The notes beneath the pieces are model-generated. The model had not been told where the DNA came from. It made no database searches and worked only from the letters and a program-made list of their open reading frames with translations. 64,000 nt of DNA from Isoetes taiwanensis (taxonomy: Eukaryota; Streptophyta; Lycopodiopsida; Isoetales; Isoetaceae): contig JAJEKV010000002.1 in the NCBI GenBank assembly GCA_021234155.1, forward strand, positions 43,513,203 through 43,577,202, read 5' to 3'. The stretch's first letter is position 1, and each line of letters opens with the position of its first letter. Below, piece by piece: positions 31,691 through 55,676 of the stretch. The position numbers and the translations under genes were made by a program.

Positions 31691-32526
31691 TGCCAGAATC
31701 ATAACTGCATCCAAAGAATTATCTCATGGAGATAATTCGTCAATCCTTGTGTGCAAAGGATACTTCGATTCTAGTTGCCAGAATCAAGAGGAAGCTGGGC
31801 TTCCTGGTTAGTATCTGGGAGACTAATTCCATCGGTCGTGGGAAACTCTGGAAGTTCGTGTTGTGGGCGGTAGACCAGTGGCCCTTCCCCATTGTTTGGG
31901 AAGCTGCAAAATTGCTGTGTGACACATGCTATTTCAGCTCTTATATTATAACATTTGTTGTTAACAGATTACGACTTCATTCCAAGTATATTGCATTTTC
32001 CATTGTTTCTTAGGTTGTAAGTTATTTGAAGACATTTGCAATTCTTTACTTGTGACCTCAAGGTGTTTGGTCTCAAGGTATTTGATCTTTTCTTGTTTGT
32101 TGCTAATTGATATGCCCCAGCAAAGTTAAGAAAATTGTTCTTATTTCTTCAAAATATGTAGCATATGTATGGAGGAGCAGAGATTAAAACTACATGATGC
32201 CCTTTGTCTATTGGGACTACAACTACAGGGACTGCTACAGGTGGAGGTGCAGGTACGCAATAGCCCACTTCTGCAATTTTCATTCATCTTAACAAGGGTT
32301 CTCTTTATCATTACTAGCTTCCTAGTTGTCTTTGAAGTCCTAATCCTAAAGAGTATTATATGGTCTGCCTATACTCTGTCCATCAAATCCTTAACAAGCT
32401 GGTTTTTTTTCCTTGTTCTAATTGTCAGGAACTAACTTTATTAAGCACAATTTCATTAATTATGGACAATACCTGAATTTATGGACCATTTTTAGTACAC
32501 TTGGATGAATGACTCATTTTCATACA

Positions 32527-34510
32527 CTAGTTGACATCCCCTGCGAGTGCTGCATATGCCTCAGCAGCATGCACGGGTATCTTAATAGTATTAGGTATCT
32601 TCTTCTTATTTGATGGCTCCCAAGCGTAGTCGATATTCTCCACTTCTATGCGGTCACTTGCAGTCATTGGCCTCCATCTCTTCTTCCAGCAATTGGCATA
32701 ATTAGCTTGGTAGACTTGGTTCCTCACTGGGATTGGCTCCCACCAAGTCACCAGAATAGTCTCAAAGTTCTCCTTCTTATCATCCATTTGTGGATCCTCA
32801 GTAGTTAGGCCCACCCAAGTTGGGCACAACACATCATCGTATGTGCCATAATAAATATACCTTTCTTCAAATCTTTGTATGGGTTGAATTCCGGTACAGG
32901 TTTGTCCTTCCAGGGCCGACATAAGGAGGAGTGATAGTAGCAATTGGCTCCACCACTACAGCCTACATGAGGTGGAGCTTGTGCTTGCCTAGTATGCGTG
33001 GCCGTAAGTCATTATAAGTGCCTTCAATCACGGTGATGTTCCCGAAGTTCTTGCAAGAGTTTCATCCAATATTCAATCGTGGACGTGAACTGCGGCGTAG
33101 TACTTGGCGTTTCGAGCACCCTTGTTACTAGTTGAACAAGCAACCCAATGCAATATATGCTTGTGGATATTGCTTTCGCAAAGAGGCCAAGGTCCTTCAC
33201 CGATTTCTTGGGAGGAAGCAAATTTTAGGATATCCAACCGGCATCATGGGCTTCCCCGCCCTCTTTTTCTTTCCACATCTTTATTCCACCAAAAGAAAAC
33301 CAATCCAAGTAAGTGGGTCTAGTTTTGTAATACATGATCTGCCAATCACCATTCATAGCTTAATCTGAAAGTTAAGAGGGGTGGTATGACCGCCAATCTA
33401 TCATCTCCATCTGGTATGTAGCCTTCTATAAAACCCTTCCAATCCGGAACTTTGTCAACAACATAGGGCACAGGTGTATTCAAGTTGCATTTGTGGAATT
33501 CATACAATAGTTCTGGCATTGTGAGCACCTCAGCCTTCTTTAAAGATGTAGAGAAGTTACCAAACAAGGCATCGATATCATCATGTGTGTGACCGGGCAT
33601 CATGAACCCTAGCTCAATCTCTTCAAACGCACCAAGATATACTAGGTAAGAAAGATAGGAGAAGACGTAACTATTCTTGTTCCGGTCTGGATGCGTTGTC
33701 CAAATGCAAATAAAGTATCTTGGGCGAGGCTTCAATGATGGTCCCCTCGCCTGCGGGCAAATTAGCGTGTATGCCGGTATTGGATAGTGACAACTTTGAC
33801 TCCAAGGCCGTCATGTCTCGGGTGAATGAGGAGACCCATTTTGGAGCAGATGATTGTGTAATCGGCTTGTGTGGCCTCCTGCATACTCGTGCCCCATCTC
33901 TAATCTCTTCAAGATGCTATTCAAAGAACCTACATGGAAGTTAGAGTCATCTGGCCATAAGTCCAGGGCAAAGTTTCCATAGGATCCATTCCCATGACCA
34001 TGAGTCAATGCACCATCAATGTCGTTTTGAGCTTGTCAAGTCTCCAAGAGAGACTTCACGATTGTTGCAATTTTGGAATCATTGTTTTGGCTTGATCCAT
34101 TTTGTCGTGAATAATACAAAGATATTGGCGGGATACCGTGGGGAGTATAATCTCCACGACCCAGTCTTCGTGTGCGACACGAGGCCCCGCCTCCAGTCTA
34201 TGCGCTCTTCTTTCATCATGCAACATCCTCCTCTCTCCTTCATCTTTGGTCTTGAGAACCCGTGACGGATCACCTCACATGTATCGCATTTGGAGAATGC
34301 AATTTTCTTGGCGATCATCGACGTCCCGAAGCTCCGCCTCCACGTTCTATGAAAACCATGGGTGATACCTTCTTGCTACCAATGCCACAACCTCTGCATT
34401 AACCTCTTCTAGAATCTTTGGACTTAAGTAAACATTACGTGCAACTTCGACATTCTCTCTTATCCCTCCTCGTTTCTCTGCTTTGCGGTGGGGCAAGGAT
34501 TCACCGTTCT
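32527..34510 (-). pseudogene. DUF7869-like, transposon-associated protein, broken
   Basis: Minus-strand pieces align in order with a large protein family marked by GHTH(D/E)DID. N-terminal part (34510-34380): ENVEVARNVYLSPKILEEV. Then FSKCDTCEVIRHGFSRPK (34318-34260), DKMDQAKTMIPKLQQS (about 34090), THGHGNGSYGNFALDLWPDD (34008-33940), LYLHLDNAS (about 33715), SYVFSYLSYLVYLGAFEEIE and GHTHDDIDALFGNFS (33680-33540). The C-terminus is ETILVTWWEPIPV and CWKKRWRPMT (32860-32690). The conserved D-x-M-D, L-D-N and GHTHDDID residues hint at a nuclease-like acidic site, which is inference. At least five frameshifts make it a pseudogene. Relatives of this type occur in plants, algae, fungi and animals, often in mobile DNA. 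Confidence 0.7.
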
Positions 34511-34519
34511 CCCTCACAA

Positions 34520-35680
34520 ACATAACATGGCCTCACGGGGAGGAGCGAGGCTTCAAGGTGCCATAGTTACCATGTTCGGCGCTTTGCGTGCACCCTCAAG
34601 AAATTGTGCCTTCCATTTCGTGATACCGACTTTGAGATCCCGAGACCAAGGTACCACGCCCTTTCAAGAAACGAGATTTCTTTGCAAAGACTAGTCGTCC
34701 CACTCTTCGACCTTTCATGTTGTTGGCTAACATGTCATAAACAAAAGTAACCCTATCACTTGATTTCATGGCAAGGGAATTCCTTTTCGCATGTTAACAA
34801 CTTGATTCAGAGAGAACTTGACGCAACACCTATTCTTGCAACACAAGGTCCTCCCCAGAATCGAGGATAGCATTCTCGAGTGGTGAGACGAGCAAGCTTT
34901 GGTGGCCTTACAACCTTCTTGGGCTGTCGGGAATGAAAAGTGTAATGTCGTTTCTCATAATTTGGGTGCCGATGCTCGAGCTCCCCGGCCGGACACAATA
35001 TTCGCTTCCGCGCGGTGTTTGCGGTCAATATCTCCGGTGAAATTTACTCCATCAACAAGGACGAGGTCATTGCTCCATCTCATGAGCATCCTCGGTTTGG
35101 TAAATGCAAGCAACCCCGGCAACGGATGTTCACTTCAGAAAGGGAGGGAAAACTTCCCGATTCTGGATACTCCCACAAACTTGAAACCCGTAAACTGGTC
35201 ACAAACCGCATCATCATCGGGGCGGTGAAAGATATGAATCCCTTTCCGGCGCGATAATGGAGTCGCAGGAGTGCCATATCTCACAATCCTTTTCAAGAAG
35301 GGTATATCTTGTCGTGGTTGTGTCTCCTTTCCCACCTCTCGTCATTTGTCTTTTCTTTGGGGACGTGATTAGCGCGGGCGACTCACGAGCATCTTCGCCT
35401 TCTCCAGAGAACGAATGAGCCCCCGCTTCGCTATTGTGTTTGCATCTGGAGTTGGCCAAGGAAGGGTATGGTGGCCTTCGAACACTTCCTCCACACCTAC
35501 GCTCACTACTCCATTCGATATCTCCTTGAAGTGGCATTGTGTCATTTGCCCCACAACTCCCTTTGCTACTAGATGTTCATTAAGGAAGAGATACACAACC
35601 TGCACAAGGATTTCAGTAGTGTTAAAATCGAGTAAGGAAGACGAGAAAGCAATGCAAAGGACATGGGGGGATGGCCATTC
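34520..35680 (-). other. ORF-rich stretch upstream of the DUF7869-like relic, unassigned
   Basis: Several overlapping short ORFs lie on both strands (for example 35369-35755 minus, 128 residues, and 35415-35777 plus). The minus strand may hold the broken N-terminus of the DUF7869-like protein (PKKVVRPPKLARL; KFVGVSRIGKFSLPF), but I could not connect frames. Base composition is clearly more GC-rich than the flanks. No firm product. Confidence 0.25.
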
Positions 35681-35778
35681 AATGGTTGCACGCACAATGA
35701 AATTGGGCGGGTGCCCTTTTTTACATATGAGGTCTTTAGATTCCCCTTGTTGCAAATTGGGCGGCCGCCCAATTTGAA

Positions 35779-36276
35779 CCGAATGAGGCGCTTATATAAG
35801 GTTAGTATTGATGCAGTCAGTCTCACAATGGGTACAAAGAAAGGTTCTCGCCTCGAACAAGGCCATGACATTACGGACAATTGGGCCCGCCCAATTTGGT
35901 CGTGGTTGTAGAAGAACTGTAAAGAAGGCAGAGACTCGGCGCCCACCCAATTTAGCTGCCATAGAGAAGACACATTCGAGTGACAACTTGAGAATAGGCA
36001 CAATAGGCACAACTTGAGATACTTCAACCGAATGAGGCGCTTATAAAGGGTTAGTATTGATGCAGTCAGTCTCACAATGGGTACAAAAAAAGGTTCTCGC
36101 TCTGAACAGGCCATGACCGCTTACAAATTGGGCGCCCGCCCAATTTGGTCGTGGTTGTAGAAGAGTCAGAAGTAGGCAGAGACTCCCCGCCCAATTTAGC
36201 CGCCATAGAGAAAACACATCTGAAAGTGACAACTTGAGAATAGGCACAATAGGCACAACTTGAGATATGGTTTGCC
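35779..36276 (+). repeat. 249-bp tandem duplication including palindromes
   Basis: Two units, starting CCGAATGAGGCGCTTATA at 35779 and 36028, are about 90% alike. Each carries GTATTGATGCAGTCAGTCTC, a palindrome copy, GGTCGTGGTTGTAGAAGA and GACAACTTGAGAATAGGCAC. The palindromes differ more between units than the surrounding sequence does, suggesting they change faster (small insertions in the centre). The minus ORFs 35569-36114 and 36041-36421 reflect the repeat. Confidence 0.88.
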
Positions 36277-36679
36277 CACCGCCCATTTCACCTATTCGGT
36301 CATTTACACAAAAGGGACAATCTGGCATCGCCCAATTTGTCCCTTTCTGTAAATGAAACTGAAAGAGGCAGACACTAAAAGAACCCCCTTCGATTGAAAG
36401 GGGGAGGGTTGGACTGGTCACCTAAGTGGAATCCATCATCGAGCTACCAAAACAAATACAATCGAGCATTGGAAGGGCCTGACTACAAACAAGGGTGGAC
36501 TTATCAGGGTAGTTCTTGGGGGCAAACAAACGAGCATGGAGAAAACAAAGCAGCACACAATTCCCGCACACCAATTTTCGTGAAAAGGAAGGATCGCATC
36601 GAAACTTAGAGTTTATATAAATGTGACAAAGAGTCGCCAAGTCCAAACTTCAAAAATGTGACCGAACAACCACCCCGGT

Positions 36680-36800
36680 GAATGATGAGGAGTAAATCAA
36701 CAGGCGCCATCGAAAAGGCGTGAATGAAGAGGTGTGAATGAACAGGCGTGCTTGAAGAGGTGCGAATGAACAGCCGTGAATGGAAAGGCGTGAATGATTA
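36680..36800 (+). repeat. Short tandem repeats AGGCGTGAATGAA
   Basis: About eight units of roughly 15 bp (AGGCGTGAATGAAGAGGTGTG variants in pieces) occur in tandem between 36705 and 36800, with GTGAATG and GGCG constant. No coding assignment; the minus ORF across it (36650-36997) is repeat-derived. Confidence 0.7.
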
Positions 36801-36998
36801 CATTCCTTCAGATTACATTTGCAGCAATTACACATCGAGCTATGGCAAATAAAACTGAGGAGCAGCACAAACCTTTGGAGATTTCGTGGCCATGAGTATG
36901 AAGCGCTGAAGATGTTTGCGTCTTGAAGAAAAGATAGTGGCCAAACAGAAAAAGGCTGAAAAACAATAGGTCCAAGCGCATTTACATTTAAACACAAA

Positions 36999-37085
36999 TT
37001 CCCCCCAAAATTTGAATGTAATTTCCCCCCTATTTTGAAAGTTAAATGTCCCCCCTAATTTTGAGGTAATATGTCCGGCCCGGAA
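36999..37085 (+). repeat. Three short repeats with CCCCCC followed by AATTTTGA
   Basis: Three units of about 26-28 bp each read TTCCCCCC, a short A/T block with TTTGA, then GTAAT/GTTAAATG. They form a small array just left of a possible promoter. 36400-36990 contains runs of GGCGTGAATGAA-type repeats (36680-36800) and no clear gene. Confidence 0.6.
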
Positions 37086-37310
37086 CTTTTAAACACAACT
37101 TCCCGCCTAAAACACGTGCGACACGTGCATGACTCGAATTAAATTTGGGCGGGCTTTAAATGACGGATTTGAAATTTAAAATCTCCGTGCAATTATTAAT
37201 AAGGTCCACAATTAATTCCTCACGCTCGAACCCATCAACGGTCCATTTTTATTTGAAAAGTCCAAACTCTCACATGCACGACACTTGTCTTCGCTCATGA
37301 AAGGTCCATA

Positions 37311-37622
37311 ACCCTTTAAAAGCCCTCATCCTCCCTCGACCGCAGTTTTAGAAAATTTCGTTTCCTTGGCGCCGCCCGCTTAACACTTGTCGCCTTCATA
37401 TTTTTACCCAGGAAAGTCATTCTCATCCCTATCCTTGCCGCCCACACTATACTCCCGAAACGGTATTGGGCGGATCGAGCACTTGGCGCCTTTGTGTTTT
37501 CGGCCGCTTGTCGCCATCCCTGGCGCCTTCCTCTCATTCATTGTCCTATCGTGCGGGAACCCCAGTACACCAAGGAATCTTAGCGGTTGATGGCATCTCG
37601 CCCCACCACAGAGGAGGCAAAG
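37311..37622 (+). promoter_or_regulatory. Possible promoter and first exon of an island gene
   Basis: A TATA-like CCTTTAAAAG at about 37313 is followed by a pyrimidine-rich leader, and an ATG at 37589 opens MASRPTTEEAK directly into a donor-type GGTAAGT. A plausible acceptor (TTTGCAG) lies at 38398 ahead of the ORF RLLQERMQERKKRKN. If spliced, the gene would span the palindrome array. This is a prediction from signals only. Confidence 0.25.
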
Positions 37623-38010
37623 GTAAGTTTGGACTACTATCTAAATATAAACTTGAGCCGCCGATTGAGTATCCCACTTTTGCTTAGAGGAAATTGGGCC
37701 GTGGTCGACAAATTAACATCTTCTAGATGCCTCACCGGGTCCCCACAAATGCATACGAAATGCGTAACTTCATAGGGCACCCAATTGCTTCCCCGAGGGG
37801 CTTTCATTTTGCACAACATTGGCCTTTTTTCTCAAAAAAAAGAGGGCTACCCTTCCATCACGAGGGGTATCTTAACCACGCTCAAGGGCGTGAGAACGAA
37901 CTTCTCCCTTACACCAAATTAAAGGACGCTTAATTTACTCTTAAGGACAAAGACGACTTCCTTGGATGGTAGACTTGGCAGAGTAAATTGCCAATTCAAT
38001 TTGGTGTAAG

Positions 38011-38310
38011 GATCCGCCAAATTGGGCGGCGCTCAATTTGGCCTCTATGATGCAACCGCCTCCTCGCCCCAAGTCTCACTATGAGTTGAGCGGGAGTAAA
38101 TTGGGCGCCCAATTTGGTGTAGTAGGGATCCGCCAAGTGGGCTTCAATTTGGCCTCTATGATGCAATCGCCTCTTCACCACAAGTCTCACCATGAATTGA
38201 GGGGAGTAAATTGGGCGCCCAATTTATCGGTGTAGATCCGCCAAATTGGCAAGGCCCAATTTGGCCTCTATGATACAACCGCCTCTTCAGCCCCAAGTCT
38301 CCCAAGTACT
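38011..38310 (+). repeat. Three tandem units of about 110 bp, each with palindromes
   Basis: Units begin GGATCCGCCAA (38011, 38128) or GATCCGCCAA (38236) and share TTTGGCCTCTATGATGCAA, CCGCCTC and CAAGTCTCAC, then GGGAGTAAATTGGGCG. Each holds one diverged and one perfect palindrome copy, the third unit being cut short. This is where the palindromes are densest. Confidence 0.9.
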
Positions 38311-38393
38311 AACACTACTTTCCGCTCAAGTAGAATTATTATGGGCTTGAACAAAGCAGCATCGCCGGGTTCCCTTGGCCCCGCACTCCAAAT

Positions 38394-38723
38394 TTGCAGA
38401 GGCTATTGCAAGAGAGGATGCAAGAACGTAAGAAGAGAAAGAACTGCTTTGTCGGCATCCGTGTAGTGCCCCATGAAGTTTTGACGGCGGTCGAGGAATG
38501 GGTGCGGTGCATAGAGATAGGGAATATTCATCCCGGGTCCCGCACAAACCACCTCAAGGATCTTTTGCTTTTCTTTGGCAAGAGAGGGACAGGAAAAATG
38601 AACTCGGCGGGTATCGTCATCGACATGGAGGTCTCGCCTGAGAACAACGATGACTTCCTCATCGATGTTGAAGACAATCAGAGATCGACTTCCGTCCGCT
38701 ATAAAGTTCCACTTTCTAGGTAA
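38394..38723 (+). CDS. Unknown island ORF 1
   Basis: Reads RLLQERMQERKKRKNCFVGI, HEVLTAVEEWVRC and later FLIDVEDNQRSTSVRYKVPL, ending at 38723. The region 38725-38840 continues in another frame with KPTFLRHRGWALDSYESL, so the gene is probably longer and broken. A basic N-terminal part and an acidic later part are visible. I do not recognise it. An acceptor-like TTTGCAG precedes it. Confidence 0.35.
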   Translation: MQRLLQERMQERKKRKNCFVGIRVVPHEVLTAVEEWVRCIEIGNIHPGSRTNHLKDLLLFFGKRGTGKMNSAGIVIDMEVSPENNDDFLIDVEDNQRSTSVRYKVPLSR

Positions 38724-38893
38724 CGAGCCATGTATGATGAACGCAAGTATAAAGGAAAGCCCACATTCTTGCGCCATAGAGGATGGGCGCTAGACTCATA
38801 TGAAAGTTTAGAGCGGGCATCAAATCAAGAATGATATCTTGATGGCTACTACTGCCGTAGTGGATATTAGAACACAAACAAAACAGGTCGAAA

Positions 38894-39460
38894 GCACTGT
38901 TCACGGAGTATCAGGGCAAAAACCAACCTAAAGTATACGATTCTAAGTGGCTTAAGTCTAGATACAAGAAAAGTGAGACAAAAGATAAGCAAGCAGCGCC
39001 GCCCATGGAGACCGAGACAGCAGTAAAGAAGGCGAGGACACCTGCTACAGCTATTCCCCGCAAAGCTGCCCCTAAACTTGTATTCGGTGGAATGTCTACA
39101 ATAGCAAGGTCGCCCCAGGTGAGTGCAGAAGAGGACCAGTCGTCTGAAGAGGAACCCTCTAAGCGCAGAGGAAAAGATTTAGGTGGTCCGTCCAAGAGGC
39201 GCAAGCGGGACATCTCATCACAGAGCCCAAATAGTTCGGAGAGGGAGTCTTTGTCTGCTTCTTCATCTGAAGAACGGGAGACTAGCCGGCAGATCGTGAA
39301 GTTCACTCCATCTGGTGGCGACGTCACACAGGAGAGCAGACATGAGTTGTCACAGAGCGCCATAGCAAGCATCAAGCAATGTGGAGAGAATCTACCCTCG
39401 GGGGTGGGCTTCGAGATTGAAGTCGATGTGTTCAAGATGCATAAAGCCCCGCAAATATGA
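38894..39460 (+). CDS. Unknown island ORF 2, lysine/serine/acid-rich
   Basis: The frame is open before the first ATG (39005), starting KALFTEYQGKNQPKVYDSKW, then a low-complexity region typical of disordered nuclear proteins: KKARTPATAIPRKAAPK, EEDQSSEEEPSKRR, PSKRRKRD and SSSEERETS. These could be bipartite nuclear localisation signals. The final part (IKQCGENLPSGVGFEIEVDV) looks more folded. No family is recognised. The stop at 39460 is followed, after about 620 bp of unassigned sequence, by palindromes at 40087-40185. Confidence 0.4.
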   Translation, partial: ALFTEYQGKNQPKVYDSKWLKSRYKKSETKDKQAAPPMETETAVKKARTPATAIPRKAAPKLVFGGMSTIARSPQVSAEEDQSSEEEPSKRRGKDLGGPSKRRKRDISSQSPNSSERESLSASSSEERETSRQIVKFTPSGGDVTQESRHELSQSAIASIKQCGENLPSGVGFEIEVDVFKMHKAPQI

Positions 39461-40440
39461 CTTGTAGGGTCATAAGTCGAGCACTTGACACTCTCTATTT
39501 AATCGCTTATCAGCCATCGGATGCACCCTCCCCGTGGCCGATGTCGGTCGCTCGATCTACGCATTGCAGGCGCAGCAATTAAGTGGAAGAAGGCGAGAGG
39601 ACCGCAAAATGCGTAATTTTGATTGTAAATGGCAACCATAACGACCACGGTTGCTCAACCGCTTGTCACACAAGCTTTGTTAAAAGAGGGGGCCGGATAG
39701 GTTAAATGAGGAGGGCGGATACTACGCCATCGCAGGGCCGGATTCTTCAATAGAGGGGGGGCGGATCCTTCAAGCGTCTCGGCAGAAATCTCTCACAAAG
39801 AATCGAAGTACGTGCTCGTGTCGGCCCGGAGAATAATGACGTAACAAAGAAGACTATATACACGAAGAAGTATTCTTGAAGAAATTCAGCAGCCTTGAAA
39901 CTAGTGGGCATTCTACGGGGAAGCCTAAAAGGGAAAAAACGGGCACTCTCGTCGGTGGAGCTTTATTCCGTGGAGTGCACTACCACCATTATTTTCGAGT
40001 TCGTGCTATCCACGGTTTTCAAATACCACCAATTTCGAGATCGTTGACACTTTTTTTCCATGGCACCCAATTTTCTCGGAACGAGTGCAAATTGGGCCCG
40101 CCCTATTTGGGACCCGTCTAGGAAATTGGGCGCCGGCCAGCCACCGGTGTCGGATGGTCCGAAATTGGGCGCCTCAATTTGGGACAGCTAGTGCAAGCAA
40201 ATTAAGATGATGTGTATGGGCCTTATCTAATGCCTTCGTCATGCGAGGGATTGGAAAGTCAGAAGGCCGCAAACGATTAAGAAGTCAACTATGCGTGACT
40301 ACTTAACTACTTTGTATATCTTGATAACTTAATCATGGTCAATGTGCACCAAGTTGCCCGCTTATTCTACTTAAGACCGGTTGAAGGACTAGAAGGGAGA
40401 AAGAATTGAAGTGAAAGATAGGCTTAGACTTTTCACCAAC

Positions 40441-41160
40441 AATTCTTGTCGCCCATTAAAGTCCATGCATCTTCTAGATCTGCAAAGGCTGATGAAGGAG
40501 ATCAAGGATGGCACCACATTCCCGGAAGGGAAGCAAGGATTATACCGAGACGCACTCATGAAAGTCGAGCCTTAGAGCTGAAGAAGATTGGAACAATGGA
40601 GCGGGCCCTTGTCGATACATGAAGGAAGTGAAGAAACTTCCTTTTCAAGACATGGTCGCCTTGAGGCAAGCTCATCCCATATTCACAGAGAATCGATGCT
40701 TATGTTCGCCAAGTAGTATCGATGGATGGGCGTAAGGGACGCAAAGAGATGGAGAAGGAAAGCTTTCCGAGTCCCTCTACAAACAAAGTAGATCTAATAT
40801 CTTCTTGGGCCGCTTGAGGAGGGTGGCAAACCGTTCAAGTGTTTCCACGTTAGTCCGCGGGGTTTGTGCGTGGACGTGGTAAACACTTCTGCCCGCTTCA
40901 TTGGATGCGACTTCAGATATACAAAGAAATGGCCAAAGGAAGATTATGAAAAATTCCTTGACCAGCTTAGCACAATGATGGACCAGCAGCTTTTCTTGGA
41001 TAGCTATATTTATTACCCGGACCGCCTCAATGAGTGCCTATCCACCATGAAGACAATAGACGGTGGCGGCCGTGTTTGGGTTGGTTCCTACCAGACCCCC
41101 GCCGTAACCGCTTCTACCTCGGAGTTCGAGAGTTGCAATGTCTTGTCCCGCTAATGTATG
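40441..41160 (+). pseudogene. Unknown island gene 3, broken
   Basis: Readable parts in changing frames: 40441-40570 (KSMHLLDLQRLMKEIKDG, FPEGKQGLYRDALMKVEP), then 40864-41154 (ARFIGCDFRYTKKWPKEDYE and LDQLSTMMDQQLFLDSYIYY), continuing in another frame to 41396 (NRFYLGVRELQCLVPLMYVA, EINICFANSDHPKQ). The second part looks like a compact alpha/beta protein. It is not recognised. A palindrome copy at 41321 and an acceptor-like TTTTCCCCCGCAG at 41383 follow. At least two frameshifts. Confidence 0.35.
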
Positions 41161-41944
41161 TTGCGAGAGACGACGCTCCGCCATCCGTATGTGAAATAAA
41201 TATTTGTTTCGCCAATTCCGACCATCCAAAGCAATATGCTAAGTTTCCCAAGCATTTTAGAAAAAAACAGACATCGAAAAGAATTTGCCTCGATCATGAG
41301 TGTGCAGCGGTATGCATTTTAAATTGGGCACCAATTTTGTTGTTGACTATCAATGTTTCTAACATTTGTTTTCCCCCGCAGAACTTATTGGTCTGATCGT
41401 CCTTGGTGCGACAAGGGTGCGGCAGTGGGGAGGAGTACTTCGTGCGTAATCGGGGTTGGAAAGTAGGACGTGCACCTATCTAGTACGCAGTTGATGTTGG
41501 AAGGTTGCAATCGTTTTCGACTTCTTTTCCGGTGGTGCTTTTAGCCGAAATGCGCAGGTGCGAGGGCTATAAAACATTGTCTTTTGAAACGACGAGAAGC
41601 TGGAAATTAAGCTTGTACGGATATTCGAAAGCAACTCGATGTCATGTTAGACGAGAAAAATCAAGAGCTCGGGCACTACAAAAGATCAAAGAGGGAAAGA
41701 AGAAGGCCTCTACTTCCAAAAATGTTCCTCCCTCGCTTTCCGCTCCCGAAACACCTTGTCCGTTCTCCTCTACAACCATAAACGAAGTGCAATCCATTTC
41801 GAGACAGACAAGAGCTCGATTCAAGTAGAGCTCAAAAGGCAAAGGGCCCTTGGCTCTCGTGGATTTGGAACTATTTAGGAGAAGAAAAGACAACATCAAT
41901 GCAATCGGCGTGGACTATTAATCGGGTGAATACTCGTGACATGA

Positions 41945-42208
41945 TTGAGGCGACCTCAAAGTTCGAGGAAGAGGTTGCTAGGGATCCCGAAGTCCGCCGT
42001 TGTCATGGAAACACAAGAAGGGGACAATCGGGATGGAGAGGATGTGGTCCCCAACACATTGAACAGTCAAGATGTAGAGGAAGAGGTCGCGAACACAGAA
42101 GACAATCAGGGTGCAGATGAGGAGAATGAGGAACCGGGAGCCAAGATTTTAGGCAAAGAATGGAAAAGATCAAAGAGGCAAAAGACAACAACCTCCGCCC
42201 AAAGATGA
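41945..42208 (+). CDS. Unknown island ORF 4, acidic C-terminal tail
   Basis: This 87-residue ORF ends in an acidic, asparagine-rich tail (DNRDGEDVVPNTLNSQDVEE, EDNQGADEENEEPGAK) and a basic end (KEWKRSKRQKTTTSAQR). An upstream stretch around 41650-41720 in another frame has a similar KRSKRERRR end. It is followed by two palindromes (42372, 42490). The repetitive sequence favours a disordered tail of a larger broken protein. Unrecognised. Confidence 0.3.
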   Translation: MRRPQSSRKRLLGIPKSAVVMETQEGDNRDGEDVVPNTLNSQDVEEEVANTEDNQGADEENEEPGAKILGKEWKRSKRQKTTTSAQR

Positions 42209-42729
42209 AGAACCCAAAGAAGGATCATTTCAAGAGGTGCCTCCGCATCTAATGAGCGATTTATGATGTCAAAATATGTGAAATATTTATGAACAATTGT
42301 AATTACTTCTTTTTCAGAAATGATAACGTTGCACTCATTTCCTTGTCTTAAAATTTTCTAGTTTACTTTGCTAACCAAATTGGGCGGGCGCCCAATTTGG
42401 TTACCCGTAGAAACTAAAACCTTTAATTTAATTTATTTCACGACCAATCTTGTTGCTGTTAACTTGAGACCTTCGCTATCCTCGACCACAAATTGGGTGG
42501 GCGCCCAATTTACTAGCAGAGTAAACGTCATCAAACATGAAGTGAAGTGGAGGTGCAGAAACAGTGGAGATCAAAGAGCAGACCCTCAGGAATTACTCAG
42601 GTACGTTACATTATATAATATTGACTATGCTTATTACATCCTTACAACATTATTATATCCTTGTCAGGTACATTATCATATCCGAGTCTACAACGATTCA
42701 CTCGCCGTCAACGCCGCCAAGGATGCCAT

Positions 42730-42930
42730 TCACTCAAAGATCTGGCCGATCGGGAAGCCAATGGTGGACCACAACACGAAAGTGAGCTTCCCGCAAGCAC
42801 TCGCAGGTCCATCCGCTTTGGACCGGAGCCATGGATCAAGACTAACACCGCCATCATATAGCACCGGGTTAATATCGTTGTAGCTCAAGTAGCACTTGAA
42901 GGATCGGATGTTCTCCGGACGATCCCGCAA
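42730..42930 (-). CDS. Small island protein, LDPWL family member 1
   Basis: A 66-residue ORF contains LYDGGVSLDPWLRSKADG then CGKLTFVLWSTIGFPIGQIF. It shares with 43247-43525 and 43692-43925 the pattern of a glycine/lysine turn, L-D-P-W-L (or M-E-D-W-M), about 15-20 residues, then an alternating hydrophobic strand with I-x-x-x-W/L-W. Function unknown. Palindromes flank it on both sides. Confidence 0.4.
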   Translation of the reverse strand: MRDRPENIRSFKCYLSYNDINPVLYDGGVSLDPWLRSKADGPASACGKLTFVLWSTIGFPIGQIFE

Positions 42931-43246
42931 GAAAAGCCATGAGAGATGAATGCGTGGAGCTGCTTTTATAGTGGTGAAAAATTATTGATGTCAATTATTG
43001 GCGCACATTCTAGCTCGTATTGACCGTGATATCGGTATACCAGATGACCACACGAAATTGGGTGGCCGCCCAATTTCGCGTACCATTCACTATGCGCATT
43101 CAAGGGGAACCATTCTAGGGCAAAGTGGGCGGGCGCCTAATTTCACGGGACATGTTGGACAAGTTGCACATATAGAAGACAAGTTGTACTAATACTTTAT
43201 CTCATAGATGATTACGACCGATTACAACAAGATGACAAGCGTTCAT

Positions 43247-43525
43247 TTAGGGGGACTCTTCTGAGTCATTTTCACCGGGCACCCCAGCGATCTTCTCTAT
43301 CATGTACATTTGATGCTCTCTATTCCATATCAGATGGATGATAACATCGAAGGGATCAGGATAATGGCGAGGATTTAGAGCGACTGTGGTCATCCAGTCT
43401 TCCATGGGTATCTCTCGCCGCAAGACCGCTTGAAGTTTTCGCGGATTCATCTTGCAGGTGATAGAATCTCGTTCAGGACCAGAATGAGACCACATGGCTA
43501 GACGAAGGCCAAATTTGATGGACAA
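43247..43525 (-). CDS. Small island protein, LDPWL family member 2
   Basis: A 92-residue ORF has CKMNPRKLQAVLRREIPMED, WMTTVALNPRHYP and FDVIIHLIWNREHQMYMIEK, ending with an acidic tail ENDSEESP. The strand IIHLIWNREHQMYMIEKI aligns with IHIVWVPEREAFEINRI of member 3. It appears intact from ATG to stop, with palindromes 170-195 bp beyond the stop. No known domain is recognised. Confidence 0.5.
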   Translation of the reverse strand: MSIKFGLRLAMWSHSGPERDSITCKMNPRKLQAVLRREIPMEDWMTTVALNPRHYPDPFDVIIHLIWNREHQMYMIEKIAGVPGENDSEESP

Positions 43526-43691
43526 AATTGGTTTCAGATATATTTATACCCACCATGATTATTGATGGTATTATACGCAAAGATTATTGGATATACACCG
43601 TATATACACCCAATAATGCTGCTACAGTGGTCATCAATAATTCCATGGCTATAAATATAGCTGCATTCGAGGGCACAAAGACATTCACGCC

Positions 43692-43925
43692 ATGTCTCGC
43701 CATCTTCAAAGGCCCCATGTTGACACCCTTACTTGCCTTATGACCTTTGACGATCTTCATGCCTGCGAGTTGAAAGGGATATCCCTGGATCCCTGGCTGT
43801 ATGGTATAGCTACTGGTCGAAAGAAAGACTCCCCCGGCGAGTATCATGTTACTATCCATATTGTGTGGGTTCCGGAGCGCGAGGCTTTTGAGATTAATAG
43901 AATCACCAATAATTACAATCTATGA
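43692..43925 (+). CDS. Small island protein, LDPWL family member 3
   Basis: A 77-residue ORF reads DDLHACELKGISLDPWLYGI, ATGRKKDSPGEYHV then TIHIVWVPEREAFEINRITN. It lies opposite in orientation to member 2, so the pair may be an inverted duplication. An overlapping minus ORF (43584-43859) is most likely its shadow. The stop at 43925 is followed about 145-230 bp later by three palindrome copies. An upstream in-frame start cannot be excluded. Confidence 0.5.
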   Translation: MSRHLQRPHVDTLTCLMTFDDLHACELKGISLDPWLYGIATGRKKDSPGEYHVTIHIVWVPEREAFEINRITNNYNL

Positions 43926-44429
43926 CTTATGTATTTCATAACTTTATATGATATGATGATGTAACTGTGTTGTGCATGATTCAGTTGTAATCTTTCAGTT
44001 CTTATCTTCAGTTATGATCTACGTTTTCTCGTTTTCCTTTTGCCTACATGAAACTATCTTCAAGCCATCTGAAGGGCAAAGTGGAAAGGGCGCCCCAATT
44101 TCGGGGGAGACTATTCTCGAAGTAAAGTGGGCGGGTGCCCAATTTCCCCTGGAAGGAAAGTGGGCTGGGCTTCAATTTCCCCGGAAGGAAACAAGATATT
44201 ACTATTCAAAAATTGCACGTCATGGGCTGTTCTCAATGTAGACAAGAACCATTCTATTCATATAGGAATGGAGTACATGGATGGATTACATAGATAATAA
44301 TATCAACTAAACATCATGCCTCGAAAGAGATAGTTGAACAGAAAGATAATAGATAGTAATAGATAATATTAAACATGGACGTTTCACCAATATCCGGTTC
44401 CACCGCAATTAGATCCCCCGGATCGAACT

Positions 44430-44996
44430 CTATGGCTTGTCATGCGCTATACAGATCCAAACCGGCCATCCAATTCTCCCATTGATAGGGAGGCCGAGGA
44501 TGAGTTTGGTTACCAAACCCACACTCCCTTTTTTTTCCTTCTTGTAAAGCTTCTTAAATAAGGACCGAAGGAACTGTTGTGCGGCCAAACATCGCCCATT
44601 TTCAGCAACCTCTTTGAGCTTACGCCTGTAAATATGGCGTTTCAAGGAAATCAAACAGTCTTCCAGCTCTACCCTGCTGAGGTGATCCGGCTCATCACCA
44701 TCCTTCATCAACTCTCCACGACGAAGGAGCTTCCTCAGTTGGTGTCCCATTTCTTCTGTGCCATTTTTGTTTATCTCGTTCTGCACCTCAAGCTGAAGCT
44801 GATTCGCATGAGCTAATATTGGCTGGGAGATATGGCACTGCATTTCGCTCATTGTGAATCCGTCGCTGCGCCTAGTTCGGACCATTCTGACTGTCCCGAC
44901 TATGAATCTAAACTGTGCAGATTTGCGAATGCCGGTTGGTGTGGCGAGACCATGTTCAGTGAAGGCGCTTGGGCGGCAAACAAACTCGGATGTCAC
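44430..44996 (-). CDS. Unknown island protein, 188 residues, charged and helical
   Basis: The longest intact ORF of the island. After an N-terminus rich in R, T and F (AQFRFIVGTVRMVRTRRSDG), it is strongly helical and charged: AHANQLQLEVQNEINKNGTE, GHQLRKLLRRGEL, RVELEDCLISLKRHIYRRKL and QFLRSLFKKLYKKEKKG, suggesting a coiled coil or basic DNA/RNA-contacting protein. No family recognised. It converges with member 3 of the LDPWL family on a palindrome cluster (44068-44175). The first ATG is unproven; an internal start at about 44853 (MSEMQCHISQ) is possible. Confidence 0.5.
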   Translation of the reverse strand: MTSEFVCRPSAFTEHGLATPTGIRKSAQFRFIVGTVRMVRTRRSDGFTMSEMQCHISQPILAHANQLQLEVQNEINKNGTEEMGHQLRKLLRRGELMKDGDEPDHLSRVELEDCLISLKRHIYRRKLKEVAENGRCLAAQQFLRSLFKKLYKKEKKGSVGLVTKLILGLPINGRIGWPVWICIAHDKP

Positions 44997-45282
44997 TTCT
45001 TTGGCATAGTTGATAAAAGGCCTGCCAACTCACCTACCTGCACGCATTTCGAAATTTTGCATCATTCCACCAAATAAAACCCTTATTTTTTAATAAATGG
45101 GGTCCATTTGGGAGTCATATGGACTTAGCCAAAGTCCACAATTAATGAAATTATGCTTTATTGATGTCTTTCTTTATACTCTTGATTACATCATGAGCAT
45201 ATGTGTCTCTCCTTCTTCCATGCAAGGACTTCAATGATGCAGTAGCAAACATACAAGAACAACGTAGTTAGATATAATATAT

Positions 45283-53333: not shown

Positions 53334-54232
53334 AGCCCAACCTAATGTACTGGAGAAGGTAACTGGAAACCAAAGCAAAGCCAACGAACTGCCAGATGCG
53401 AGAAGAGGAGTAGGTAGGCTGGACGAGCATGATACAGCCAGATCTGCAGAGAGCAGCCGGGTGCAAAAGGAGGGGCCGAAGAAGTTCGTTGCTGGGCAAG
53501 TCCGGCCTCCCTGTGGCCGAGCACAATATGTCTGTGGCAAAAATCCGTGGCCAGGGACCCGATGCTGGGCTGGCTGAGTCTCCTCTGACGAATCGCCTCT
53601 TGACCAAGCCGCTTATGCTGTTAGCTGCATCCGATTCCTGGGTCTGGGTTCAAGGCCGTGGCTGCAAGGGCTGCTTGGATCCTGTACCATGAATCTAAAC
53701 TGATACCGTGCTGTGGATCTCGTGGCTCGGTGGGGCTTCTGCCTGTTGCTTGTTCTATCCCCCTGGGCTAGCTACGTGATGGCGGCTATGGCGCAGGTGC
53801 TAGGCGGTGGAGAGGGAAGGAATGGCGCAATTAGCAATGGCTCTTTGTTCAGTGTTTTTCATACACACACACATAAAGTGCTCTGTAGCGGACTACACAA
53901 ATGTTTCGTGACTGTCTCTTGTTTGTTGTTTAATTTACGTTCCTCCTCTGCTATATCTCTCAATTTGTGATCTCATTTATAATCTAACATTTTGCATTTT
54001 AATGATGGGAAATTCGATTTGTTTTTCCAGCTGAGTCAGAGGGACTTGCATTGGAGAAAGCCATGTGTTCTTGAAGAACAACTTGTGGGAGACTCTAGGT
54101 GGGAAAAGAGAAGTAAGTTTAAGAAGTTTAAGGGGTGTTAAAGAGTTGAGAAAACTTGCTGCAGAATTGTAGAATCTATTTTTGATGGAGATTTGTAGTG
54201 CTGCATTGTAACAGATTAAGTGGCACTATTGA

Positions 54233-54954
54233 TCCCATCGATCCGAGACATCGGATCGCCATTCTAGAATGGGGCGAGCATGCATGTCTTGCATGCATGC
54301 ATGCGGCGCATGCCCTTTCTGGTTGGGAGTTCGCTATTTTAGGCGCGGTTCGGCATCAACGTCTCATCGGGCGCTTCCCTTCTCTCTCCAGCACCTTATT
54401 CTCTTTGAACCCACCCTCCCCCTTCTTTGTTTATTGTATTTATCGCCCGCACGCGCGGATCAGCCCTCTATTTGAAGAGGTTTTTGTTTGTTGTTTCCAG
54501 GAAGGAGGGGCTTCTCCCCGCTTGGTTTGGCTAATTTGGTGTTTCTTTCATGCCGTGGCATGTCCTTTTCGCCTTGGCTCTTCTTTAGCCTTCATCCCGT
54601 GACCTTCGGCCTCGATTCCAGTTTGTTAAGGAAGTTCTCTCGCTATTCGGCGGTTTGTTGGTTTCATAAAGAGCCCCATTCTAGAATCCCATCGATCCGG
54701 AGACATCGGATCACCATTCTAGAATGGGGCGAAAGCATGCATGTCTTGCATGCATGCATGCGGGCGCATGCCCTTTCTCGGTTGGGAGTTCGCTATTTTA
54801 GGCGCTGTTCGGCATCAACGCCTCATCGGCTCTTCCTCTTTCTCTCGCCAGCATCTTTATTCTCTTTGAACCCACCCTCCCCCTTCGTTGTTTATTGTAT
54901 TTGTCACCCGCACGTGTGATCAGCCCCTCTATTTGAAGAGGTTTTGTTTTTGTC
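54233..54954 (+). repeat. Direct duplication of about 260 bp, 453 bp apart
   Basis: Copy 1 (54233-54493) and copy 2 (54686-54954) share CCCATCGATCC, GACATCGGATC, CATTCTAGAATGGGGCGA, a GCATGCATGTCTTGCATGCA tract, GGGAGTTCGCTATTTTAGGC and CTATTTGAAGAGGTTTT, with about 90% identity. A third partial match (CAGCCCCTC with GGAGG, and CGGTTTGTTGGTTTCAT) follows at 54972 and 55353. ORFs on the plus strand across the unit are also duplicated, but indels break them. Could be LTRs of a very short element or a tandem duplication. Confidence 0.85.
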
Positions 54955-55116
54955 GCGTGACACGCCGCGGATCAGCCCCTCCACTGGGAGGTTTGTTTTG
55001 TCTCGTTTTTTGTGTTGGTGATGTGCGTACAGGTTGGCGAGAAGCATCTGTTTTCGACTTCTCCATTCGTGGGTTTTGGGAGCGATTTCTATGCCTTACG
55101 TTTGTCCAAGCCCCTT

Positions 55117-55196
55117 GTCGAAGGCTTATCACTAGGGTTTTTCCTCTAAAACCCGAAAGGGCGGGGTTTTTTAATCCCGGTGATAAGCTTTCGGCA
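55117..55196. repeat. Foldback hairpin element E (80 bp)
   Basis: TGTCGAAGGCTTATCA (from 55117) pairs with TGATAAGCTTTCGGCA (55181-55196). Pairing continues inward with gaps (GGGTTTTTCC against GGGATTAAAAAACC, AAAACCCG against GCGGGGTTTT) to a short AAAGG loop. Same plan as hairpins A, C, D and G. Confidence 0.75.
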
Positions 55197-55676
55197 GGTA
55201 CACCAGCCAAACATCTATTAGCATTGTATTTTTTGGGGTCCAAATGATATAATTGGATTTTCCCTTTATTTTTCGTGGGTAGTTCGCATGTGTGCGGCTA
55301 CTCACTATCCACCATTGTAGAAAATCTGCTGAGATGAATGAGAAGCCTATCTATGGCGGTTTGTTGGTTTCATGCGAGCCCCATTCTTTGATTTTGAGAA
55401 ATGTTATCTCTAAGACAAAGGTAAATATTGCAACATGCATTTTTTTTAGTTTGTCAAAGGCCTCAGTGCTAAGCTTAACTTCCCTATCTTGCTTATTTTA
55501 GACTTCTATGTGTTCCCAAATGATCATTATGCAAAGGGAACGCCAAAACTGTTTTTAGATTTTAAAAATTCGAATGTTGGCGTTCTGCTCCGATTTGTTC
55601 CCCGTTCGTTCCAAATTTTAGGTGCATGTTCCTCGCTTCGTCCCCGTTTAAAGGGTAAGTGTGCTTGAAGGGGCCT

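Follow-up and report, generated by a model that had tools for sequence, protein, structure and literature searches.

We found that a 64,000-nucleotide stretch of Isoetes taiwanensis DNA (the window; contig JAJEKV010000002.1, positions 43,513,203 to 43,577,202) contains one copy of a 12.7-kb DNA transposon with terminal inverted repeats (TIRs) beginning AAGCA, a 4-bp target-site duplication (TSD) and a DUF7869 protein, and that a palindrome repeated in this copy is almost confined to the noncoding DNA of the element. The palindrome persists between subfamilies whose synonymous sites are saturated, and the second gene of the element, where its start is intact, begins MARTKQTAR, identical to histone H3 from the start methionine to R8. 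We put it at about an even chance that the palindromes are sites for a dimeric, element-encoded protein acting on noncoding DNA, as VANC does for VANDAL elements.

Palindromes of the window lie inside one transposon copy

The motif takes the form AAATTGGGCG(NN)CGCCCAATTT, an inverted repeat of 18 or 22 bp, and its exact arms occur nine (AAATTGGGCG) and ten (CGCCCAATTT) times in the window, all 19 within 35700-43076. A palindrome scan that tolerated ≤4 mismatches over the 20 arm bases and centres from −2 to 8 bases long recovered 18 palindromes, close to the roughly twenty counted in a first-pass annotation of this DNA, compared with a chance expectation for the element of 0.12 on average and 1 at most (60 first-order Markov simulations). 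Five have perfect 10-bp arms (at 35754, 36125, 38098, 38208 and 42377) and the last of these extends, by eye, to 15-bp arms, just as that annotation had described. It had also drawn an island at 35690..44185, where the palindromes do lie, but this interval proved to be the inside of a larger unit, 32443-45158. The claim that they occur only there held for the window, with 18 of 18 inside the element, but not for the 1.66-Gb source genome (1,110 contigs), in which AAATTGGGCG was found 14,662 times versus 994 for its reversed control. Among the first 100 matches listed, these places were clustered. The form AAATTGGGCGCCCAATTT, which together with AAATTGGGCGNNCGCCCAATTT is one of the two prevailing forms of the palindrome, occurred at 112 places, and its control at none.

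Twenty stretches around palindrome matches were fetched and compared with the window by blastn. From 32442 to about 45158 the window aligned to the fetched copies with common ends, at identities of mostly 83-88% for subfamily A (down to 72% in noncoding parts) and 65-72% for subfamilies B and C. The element and its edges are as follows.

32443..45158, no strand: transposon copy, subfamily A, 12,716 bp (blastn to other copies, TIRs, TSD)
32439..32442, no strand: left target-site duplication, TATT (read at the element edge)
45159..45162, no strand: right target-site duplication, TATT (read at the element edge)
32443..32467, plus strand: left TIR AAGCACAATTTCATTAATTATGGAC, beginning AAGCA (terminal-pattern count)
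45134..45158, minus strand: right TIR AAGCATAATTTCATTAATTGTGGAC, in minus-strand reading (terminal-pattern count)

The terminal pattern had 1,011 matches in the genome (482 and 529 on the two strands) and its reversed control had none; among the first 100 matches listed, many convergent pairs lay about 12.4 kb or 1.5-5.7 kb apart, and a few at other distances. An exact 4-bp TSD flanked 17 of the 18 further copies bounded at both ends, its sequence varying between TATT, ATAC, TATC, GATG and others, and 15 shortened copies of 1.6-5.7 kb share the element ends. The dispersed copies fall into at least three subfamilies (A, B and C) plus shorter derivatives, and the element exists as an autonomous-size form and shortened forms. 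We therefore assign it to the DNA transposons, on the basis of its TIRs, 4-bp TSD, dispersed copies and internally deleted derivatives. These same observations bear out the reading, favoured in the first-pass annotation, of a large mobile element that counts the DUF7869 gene as its own; as such it is apparently undescribed.

The other origin offered there, a relic of a nucleocytoplasmic large DNA virus, draws on several closely spaced genes on both strands with palindromes between them. It has next to no probability beside TIRs with exact 4-bp TSDs, dispersed copies and short derivatives. The 22-bp palindrome had no exact match, and genes 1 and 2 no relatives, in viral contigs, and the capsid profile PF04451 had no match genome-wide in a search in which the control genomes gave none either.

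Gene 1 scored above the cut-off of 26 bits for PF25273, a family described only as of unknown function, both in the window (E=1.4e-23, 83.9 bits) and in L012, the subfamily C copy (E=1e-42, 146.3 bits). Its conserved aspartate motifs look like those of a DDE transposase, and we treat it as a putative one. DUF7869 was not named in the literature searched. The Sola superfamily has 4-bp TSDs, and the element resembles it in one point, its 4-bp TSD of variable sequence. CACTA (EnSpm) elements have CACTA termini, a 3-bp TSD and subterminal repeats; element-specific repeated motifs and several genes are shared with them, but the AAGCA termini, the 4-bp TSD and the internal rather than subterminal position of the motifs rule them out. 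PiggyBac and Kolobok have TTAA-specific target duplications (PMC9587614), and both are ruled out because TSDs of the element vary, with TTAA in one of 18.

Palindromes occupy noncoding DNA between the genes

Genes and palindromes of the window copy were mapped by tblastn, comparison of copies and the palindrome scan.

32533..35617, minus strand: gene 1, decayed, DUF7869 protein, putative DDE transposase (PF25273 at 33346-33807, E=1.4e-23; extent by tblastn)
35700..36338, no strand: palindrome cluster I, upstream of gene 1 (arm count, palindrome scan)
37691..37715, no strand: weak palindrome with 4 mismatches, in the spacer of genes 1 and 2 (palindrome scan)
38019..38262, no strand: palindrome cluster II, upstream of gene 2 (palindrome scan)
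38341..39949, plus strand: gene 2, decayed; the MARTKQTAR start of less decayed copies is destroyed here (tblastn, comparison of copies)
40089..40179, no strand: palindrome cluster III, between genes 2 and 3 (palindrome scan)
40243..41091, plus strand: gene 3, first exon, decayed (tblastn)
41321..41338, no strand: palindrome with 4 mismatches, in the presumed gene-3 intron (tblastn, palindrome scan)
41356..41909, plus strand: gene 3, second exon, decayed (tblastn; relatives carry a weak methyltransferase-like motif, VLDFFSGGSFSRAA)
42377..42511, no strand: palindrome cluster IV, including the one with 15-bp arms (by eye, palindrome scan)
43055..43143, no strand: palindrome cluster V (palindrome scan)
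43250..43543, minus strand: gene 5, small protein, paralogue of gene 6 (E=2e-9; also in copies C812 and C301)
43641..43922, plus strand: gene 6, small protein, paralogue of gene 5 (tblastn, protein comparison)
44124..44145, no strand: palindrome VI, between the 3' ends of genes 6 and 7 (palindrome scan)
44433..45029, minus strand: gene 7, function unassigned, also in subfamily B (tblastn)

Ten of the 18 palindromes lie between the starts of the divergent genes 1 and 2 (35617-38341), two between genes 2 and 3, one in the presumed gene-3 intron, four between the 3' ends of genes 3 and 5, and one between genes 6 and 7. In the window copy, 3.3 kb separate the left end from the first cluster and 1 kb separates the last palindrome from the right end, and the DNA from the 3' end of gene 1 to the left TIR contains none. 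Across 16 gene-bearing copies, coding-like DNA makes up 52% of bases and holds only one of 283 palindromes (p=1.7e-87). A doubtful open reading frame at 42362-42880 contains two of the four palindromes between the 3' ends of genes 3 and 5; when it is counted as coding, the figure becomes 13 of 283 (p=3.6e-72). Palindromes were present in 14 of the 15 short copies, two of which (L022 and L030) had no coding remnant that we found, and in 14 of the 15 the coding-like DNA does not exceed 451 bp. A splice acceptor-like AG was seen by eye just upstream of the gene 2 start in A, B and C, so cluster II may sit in a 5'-leader intron.

This distribution bears directly on the proposal of the first-pass annotation that the palindromes follow stops and act as a bidirectional signal at transcript 3' ends. 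In the right half of the element, clusters do come after the 3' ends of genes 3, 5, 6 and 7, and the motif would be expected to fold as a hairpin. Most palindromes of the window, however, stand between divergent gene starts, none stands at the 3' end of gene 1, and copies with little or no coding DNA keep them, which leaves 3'-end hairpins a very unlikely explanation; the placement after stops survives for the right half, and the signal itself is not supported.

Gene order is the same in A and B: TIR, gene 1 (minus), cluster I, a spacer, cluster II, gene 2 (plus), cluster III and gene 3 (plus, two exons), followed by cluster IV and gene 7 (minus), with genes 5 and 6 in between in A. Subfamily C agrees through gene 2, where the 10-kb piece L012 ends. 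The spacer between genes 1 and 2 is 1.2-2 kb long, and in the 7.8-kb B copy C162 a single cluster replaces clusters I and II. The window copy is decayed, and long open frames are found in other copies; for gene 2 there were 122 genomic matches, many with long open frames (of 2,097 candidates, 119 were scored). The divergent paralogues, genes 5 and 6, share 28% identity over 65 aa (E=2e-9), and the predicted fold of gene 6 is fairly confident (predicted local distance difference test, pLDDT, 74) with no clear relative found.

Two further resemblances were noted in other copies. In L006 (5534-6421), VLDFFSGGSFSRAAMCEGYKATAFESDEN of gene 3 recalls the S-adenosylmethionine-binding motif of N4/N6 DNA methyltransferases, with non-significant profile support, and in L012 (8138-8905), FWIVNGNHTTAVAQ in the C-terminal part of gene 2 recalls a ParB-like domain, without profile support.

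The palindrome persists through saturating divergence

To judge from codon comparisons of gene 2 between A, B and C (64-253 codons per pair), synonymous differences of 0.71-0.83 per site are saturated, and nonsynonymous differences of 0.19-0.33 point to conservation of the predicted protein between subfamilies. The spacer of genes 1 and 2 showed no similarity between groups in nucleotide or protein comparison. Neutral DNA has therefore been randomised while the motif persisted, and this persistence speaks for a DNA-binding protein that probably acts as a homodimer. Gene conversion between families could also have kept the motif constant but is the weaker explanation.

In all four groups (A, B, C and short copies), the 8-mer that ranked highest for over-representation in a de novo count came from the palindrome arm. 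Palindromes numbered 16.3 per 10 kb in A (9 copies), 19.3 in B (6), 11.0 in C (1) and 20.7 in short copies (15); the short copies were chosen by their TIRs, and densities in A, B and C are biased upward because those stretches were mostly chosen for palindromes. Flanks of the palindrome carry nearly no information, mostly 0.0-0.2 bits (69 instances in A, 91 in short copies); B (n=48), with its repeated tandem units, shows higher values, and six instances are too few to judge C. Less constraint falls on the two central bases than on the arms (0.4-0.9 versus 0.8-2.2 bits), although choosing instances with ≤3 arm mismatches accounts in part for the arm values.

Tandem Repeats Finder detected arrays whose unit contains the motif in seven of nine copies, most periods being 49-231 bp within a listed range of 11-355, as expected if the palindromes merely seed minisatellite-like duplication in unconstrained noncoding DNA and have no function; exclusion from coding DNA would likewise be expected of any expansion. 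We hold this neutral account to be quite unlikely, since neutral sequence is saturated between subfamilies and yet the motif persists without a common flank (A and short copies), and since the window copy and L012 have no motif array.

Conservation between subfamilies would also be seen if the palindromes served transposition rather than expression, as internal cis sites for the transposase or an accessory protein, much like the subterminal repeats of CACTA elements. Most shortened copies (14 of 15) retain the palindromes, and such copies rely on cis sequences for their mobility. On the other hand, the outermost DNA of the window copy lacks them over 3.3 kb on the left and 1 kb on the right, and they stand between genes instead; one shortened copy, L021, 2 kb long with a perfect TSD, has none. 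We consider such sites unlikely.

Gene 2 carries the tail of histone H3

A scan for MARTKQTAR allowing ≤2 mismatches covered the 17 copies that reach the gene 2 start. The nine residues are intact in five of them, from all three subfamilies (L001 and L005 in A, L006 and L013 in B, L012 in C), and among these intact tails synonymous and nonsynonymous differences number 7 and 0 between A and B, 4 and 0 between A and C, and 4-5 and 0 between B and C. An A-type copy chosen for its 744-codon open frame, L047, also starts MARTKQTAR, with two perfect-arm palindromes ≤200 bp upstream, and the short copy L026 keeps the tail without the methionine. After residue 9 the gene 2 protein reads VPG or MPG, so H3 K9 is absent.

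Beyond the tail, gene 2 gave no sign of a histone: the Pfam matches of its pieces, taken up to E=1, included no histone profile, and tblastn with H3 matched only the tail. Gene 2 as a whole is thus ruled out as a captured H3 gene, in the absence of a histone fold by both searches. Influenza NS1 is a histone H3-tail mimic, in which a short H3-tail-like sequence is present in a parasite protein; unlike mimics of this type, the gene 2 tail is transposon-borne, lies at the true N-terminus and is exact over nine residues including the methionine. No transposon with an H3 tail was found in the literature searched.

H3-like and DUF7869 sequences elsewhere in the genome

A coding pattern for MARTKQTAR occurred 1,888 times genome-wide and its control not at all. 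Among the first 100 places listed, five chosen for different codons were read further and none continues as histone H3, while two others, C97 and C105, coincide with ordinary-looking H3 genes. The histone profile PF00125 gave 8,705 first-look candidates, a number that is not a copy count; all 150 that were scored exceeded the cut-off, about 15 being ordinary-looking H3 genes and many others lying in open frames of 200-490 codons. One of the five places read further, L045/L046 (G000:C63:103529-104518, minus strand), holds an open frame of 320 codons or more with the start MARTKQTARK, which some 300 residues on reaches what appears by eye to be the start of an H3 fold (SPFARVLREIRHFQRSYGFLIPRAAF) and so looks like a giant H3-like protein. 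Together with the MARTKQTAR and histone-profile counts, this frame suggests a large repeated family of such proteins in this genome.

PF25273 gave 9,902 first-look candidates, again not a copy count, and 150 of 150 scored exceeded the cut-off. The best reached 187 bits versus 146 bits for L012, and the element therefore looks like one branch of a large DUF7869 expansion.

A separate repeat at 54232-54441 and 54683-55286 of the window is 77-86% identical by blastn to an insertion inside copy L004 (8906-9468).

Possible palindrome binding and chromatin mimicry by the element

Anti-silencing by noncoding motif arrays is, to our knowledge, known only from VANDAL elements. The target of VANC is a short motif that recurs in noncoding tandem arrays, both upstream of a gene and within introns (PMC5735166), and VANC causes silent marks to be lost (PMC10398659). 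The Arabidopsis VANDAL elements, which are Mutator-like elements (MULEs), resemble the present element as multi-gene DNA transposons with noncoding motif arrays, and their protein acts on other copies (PMC5735166, PMC10398659), as we propose here. They differ in that this element has a DUF7869 gene 1, a 4-bp TSD and the H3 tail, and that no VANC-like protein was found. The motifs are also unlike: the VANDAL motif is YAGTATTAY, and VANC21 and VANC6 have different target motifs, whereas the motif here is a long palindrome and is the same in three subfamilies. We do not claim membership in the VANDAL/VANC system, because no MULE profile appeared when five gene-1 pieces were matched to Pfam up to E=1 and because the TSD and the motif are different.

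By analogy with VANC, a homodimeric protein made by the element would bind the palindrome, the site arrays between genes would keep noncoding DNA of the element expressed or accessible, and the arrays could serve shortened copies in trans. It is speculation that the gene 2 protein is this palindrome-binding factor or its partner. A further speculative step is that its H3 tail, which retains K4 but has V or M where H3 has K9, interacts with host proteins that read or write active chromatin. So exact a tail suggests that the element may pass itself off as active chromatin. Taken to its full extent, the idea would be that dimeric gene 2 protein binds the arrays and shows an H3 tail with R2, K4 and R8 kept and K9 lost to the host H3K4 machinery, that silencing is overridden without a nucleosome, and that H3-tail capture is a recurrent weapon of mobile DNA, since other repeats of this genome appear to carry giant H3-like proteins with the same tail. 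We regard this combination as rather unlikely as a whole.

Several observations weigh against a palindrome-binding protein of this kind. No DNA-binding domain was recognised in gene 2, which had nothing above the Pfam or NCBIfam cut-offs and no significant PDB match. Tandem duplication, visible in the motif arrays described above, or gene conversion may account for part of the motif conservation, and the short copy L021 does without palindromes while L032 has two. Between two decaying A copies the ratio of nonsynonymous to synonymous rates (dN/dS) in gene 2 was near neutral, 0.76 over 64 codons; a B pair gave 0.27 over 297 codons. The H3 tail has one or two changes in three of the 17 copies (L007, L017 and L018) and is unrecognisable in nine (the window copy, L002, L003, L004, L009, L010, L011, L014 and L016), the latter being read as general decay of the copies. 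Finally, CpG depletion is not relaxed around the palindromes: observed/expected ratios were 0.64 in their 150-bp flanks, 0.79 in coding-like DNA, 0.90 in other noncoding DNA and 1.06 in the palindromes themselves, and the sequence therefore bears no mark of long-standing hypomethylation. Ratios in the host DNA of the window were 0.53 and 0.56; element DNA (0.64-0.90 by class) is less CpG-depleted than this, as in younger or less methylated sequence.

What is new here is that a DUF7869 transposon keeps one palindrome unchanged in its noncoding DNA across subfamilies diverged to saturation, and that one of its proteins bears an H3 tail. If the palindromes bind an element protein, anti-silencing through motif arrays would exist also in an unrelated class of transposons, and there with a motif that saturating divergence has left the same. 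If the H3 tail of gene 2 works, mobile DNA would have taken over one of the most regulated chromatin peptides of eukaryotes as a tool, and the imitation of an H3K4 state by a parasite would be directly testable with one protein and one 22-bp site.

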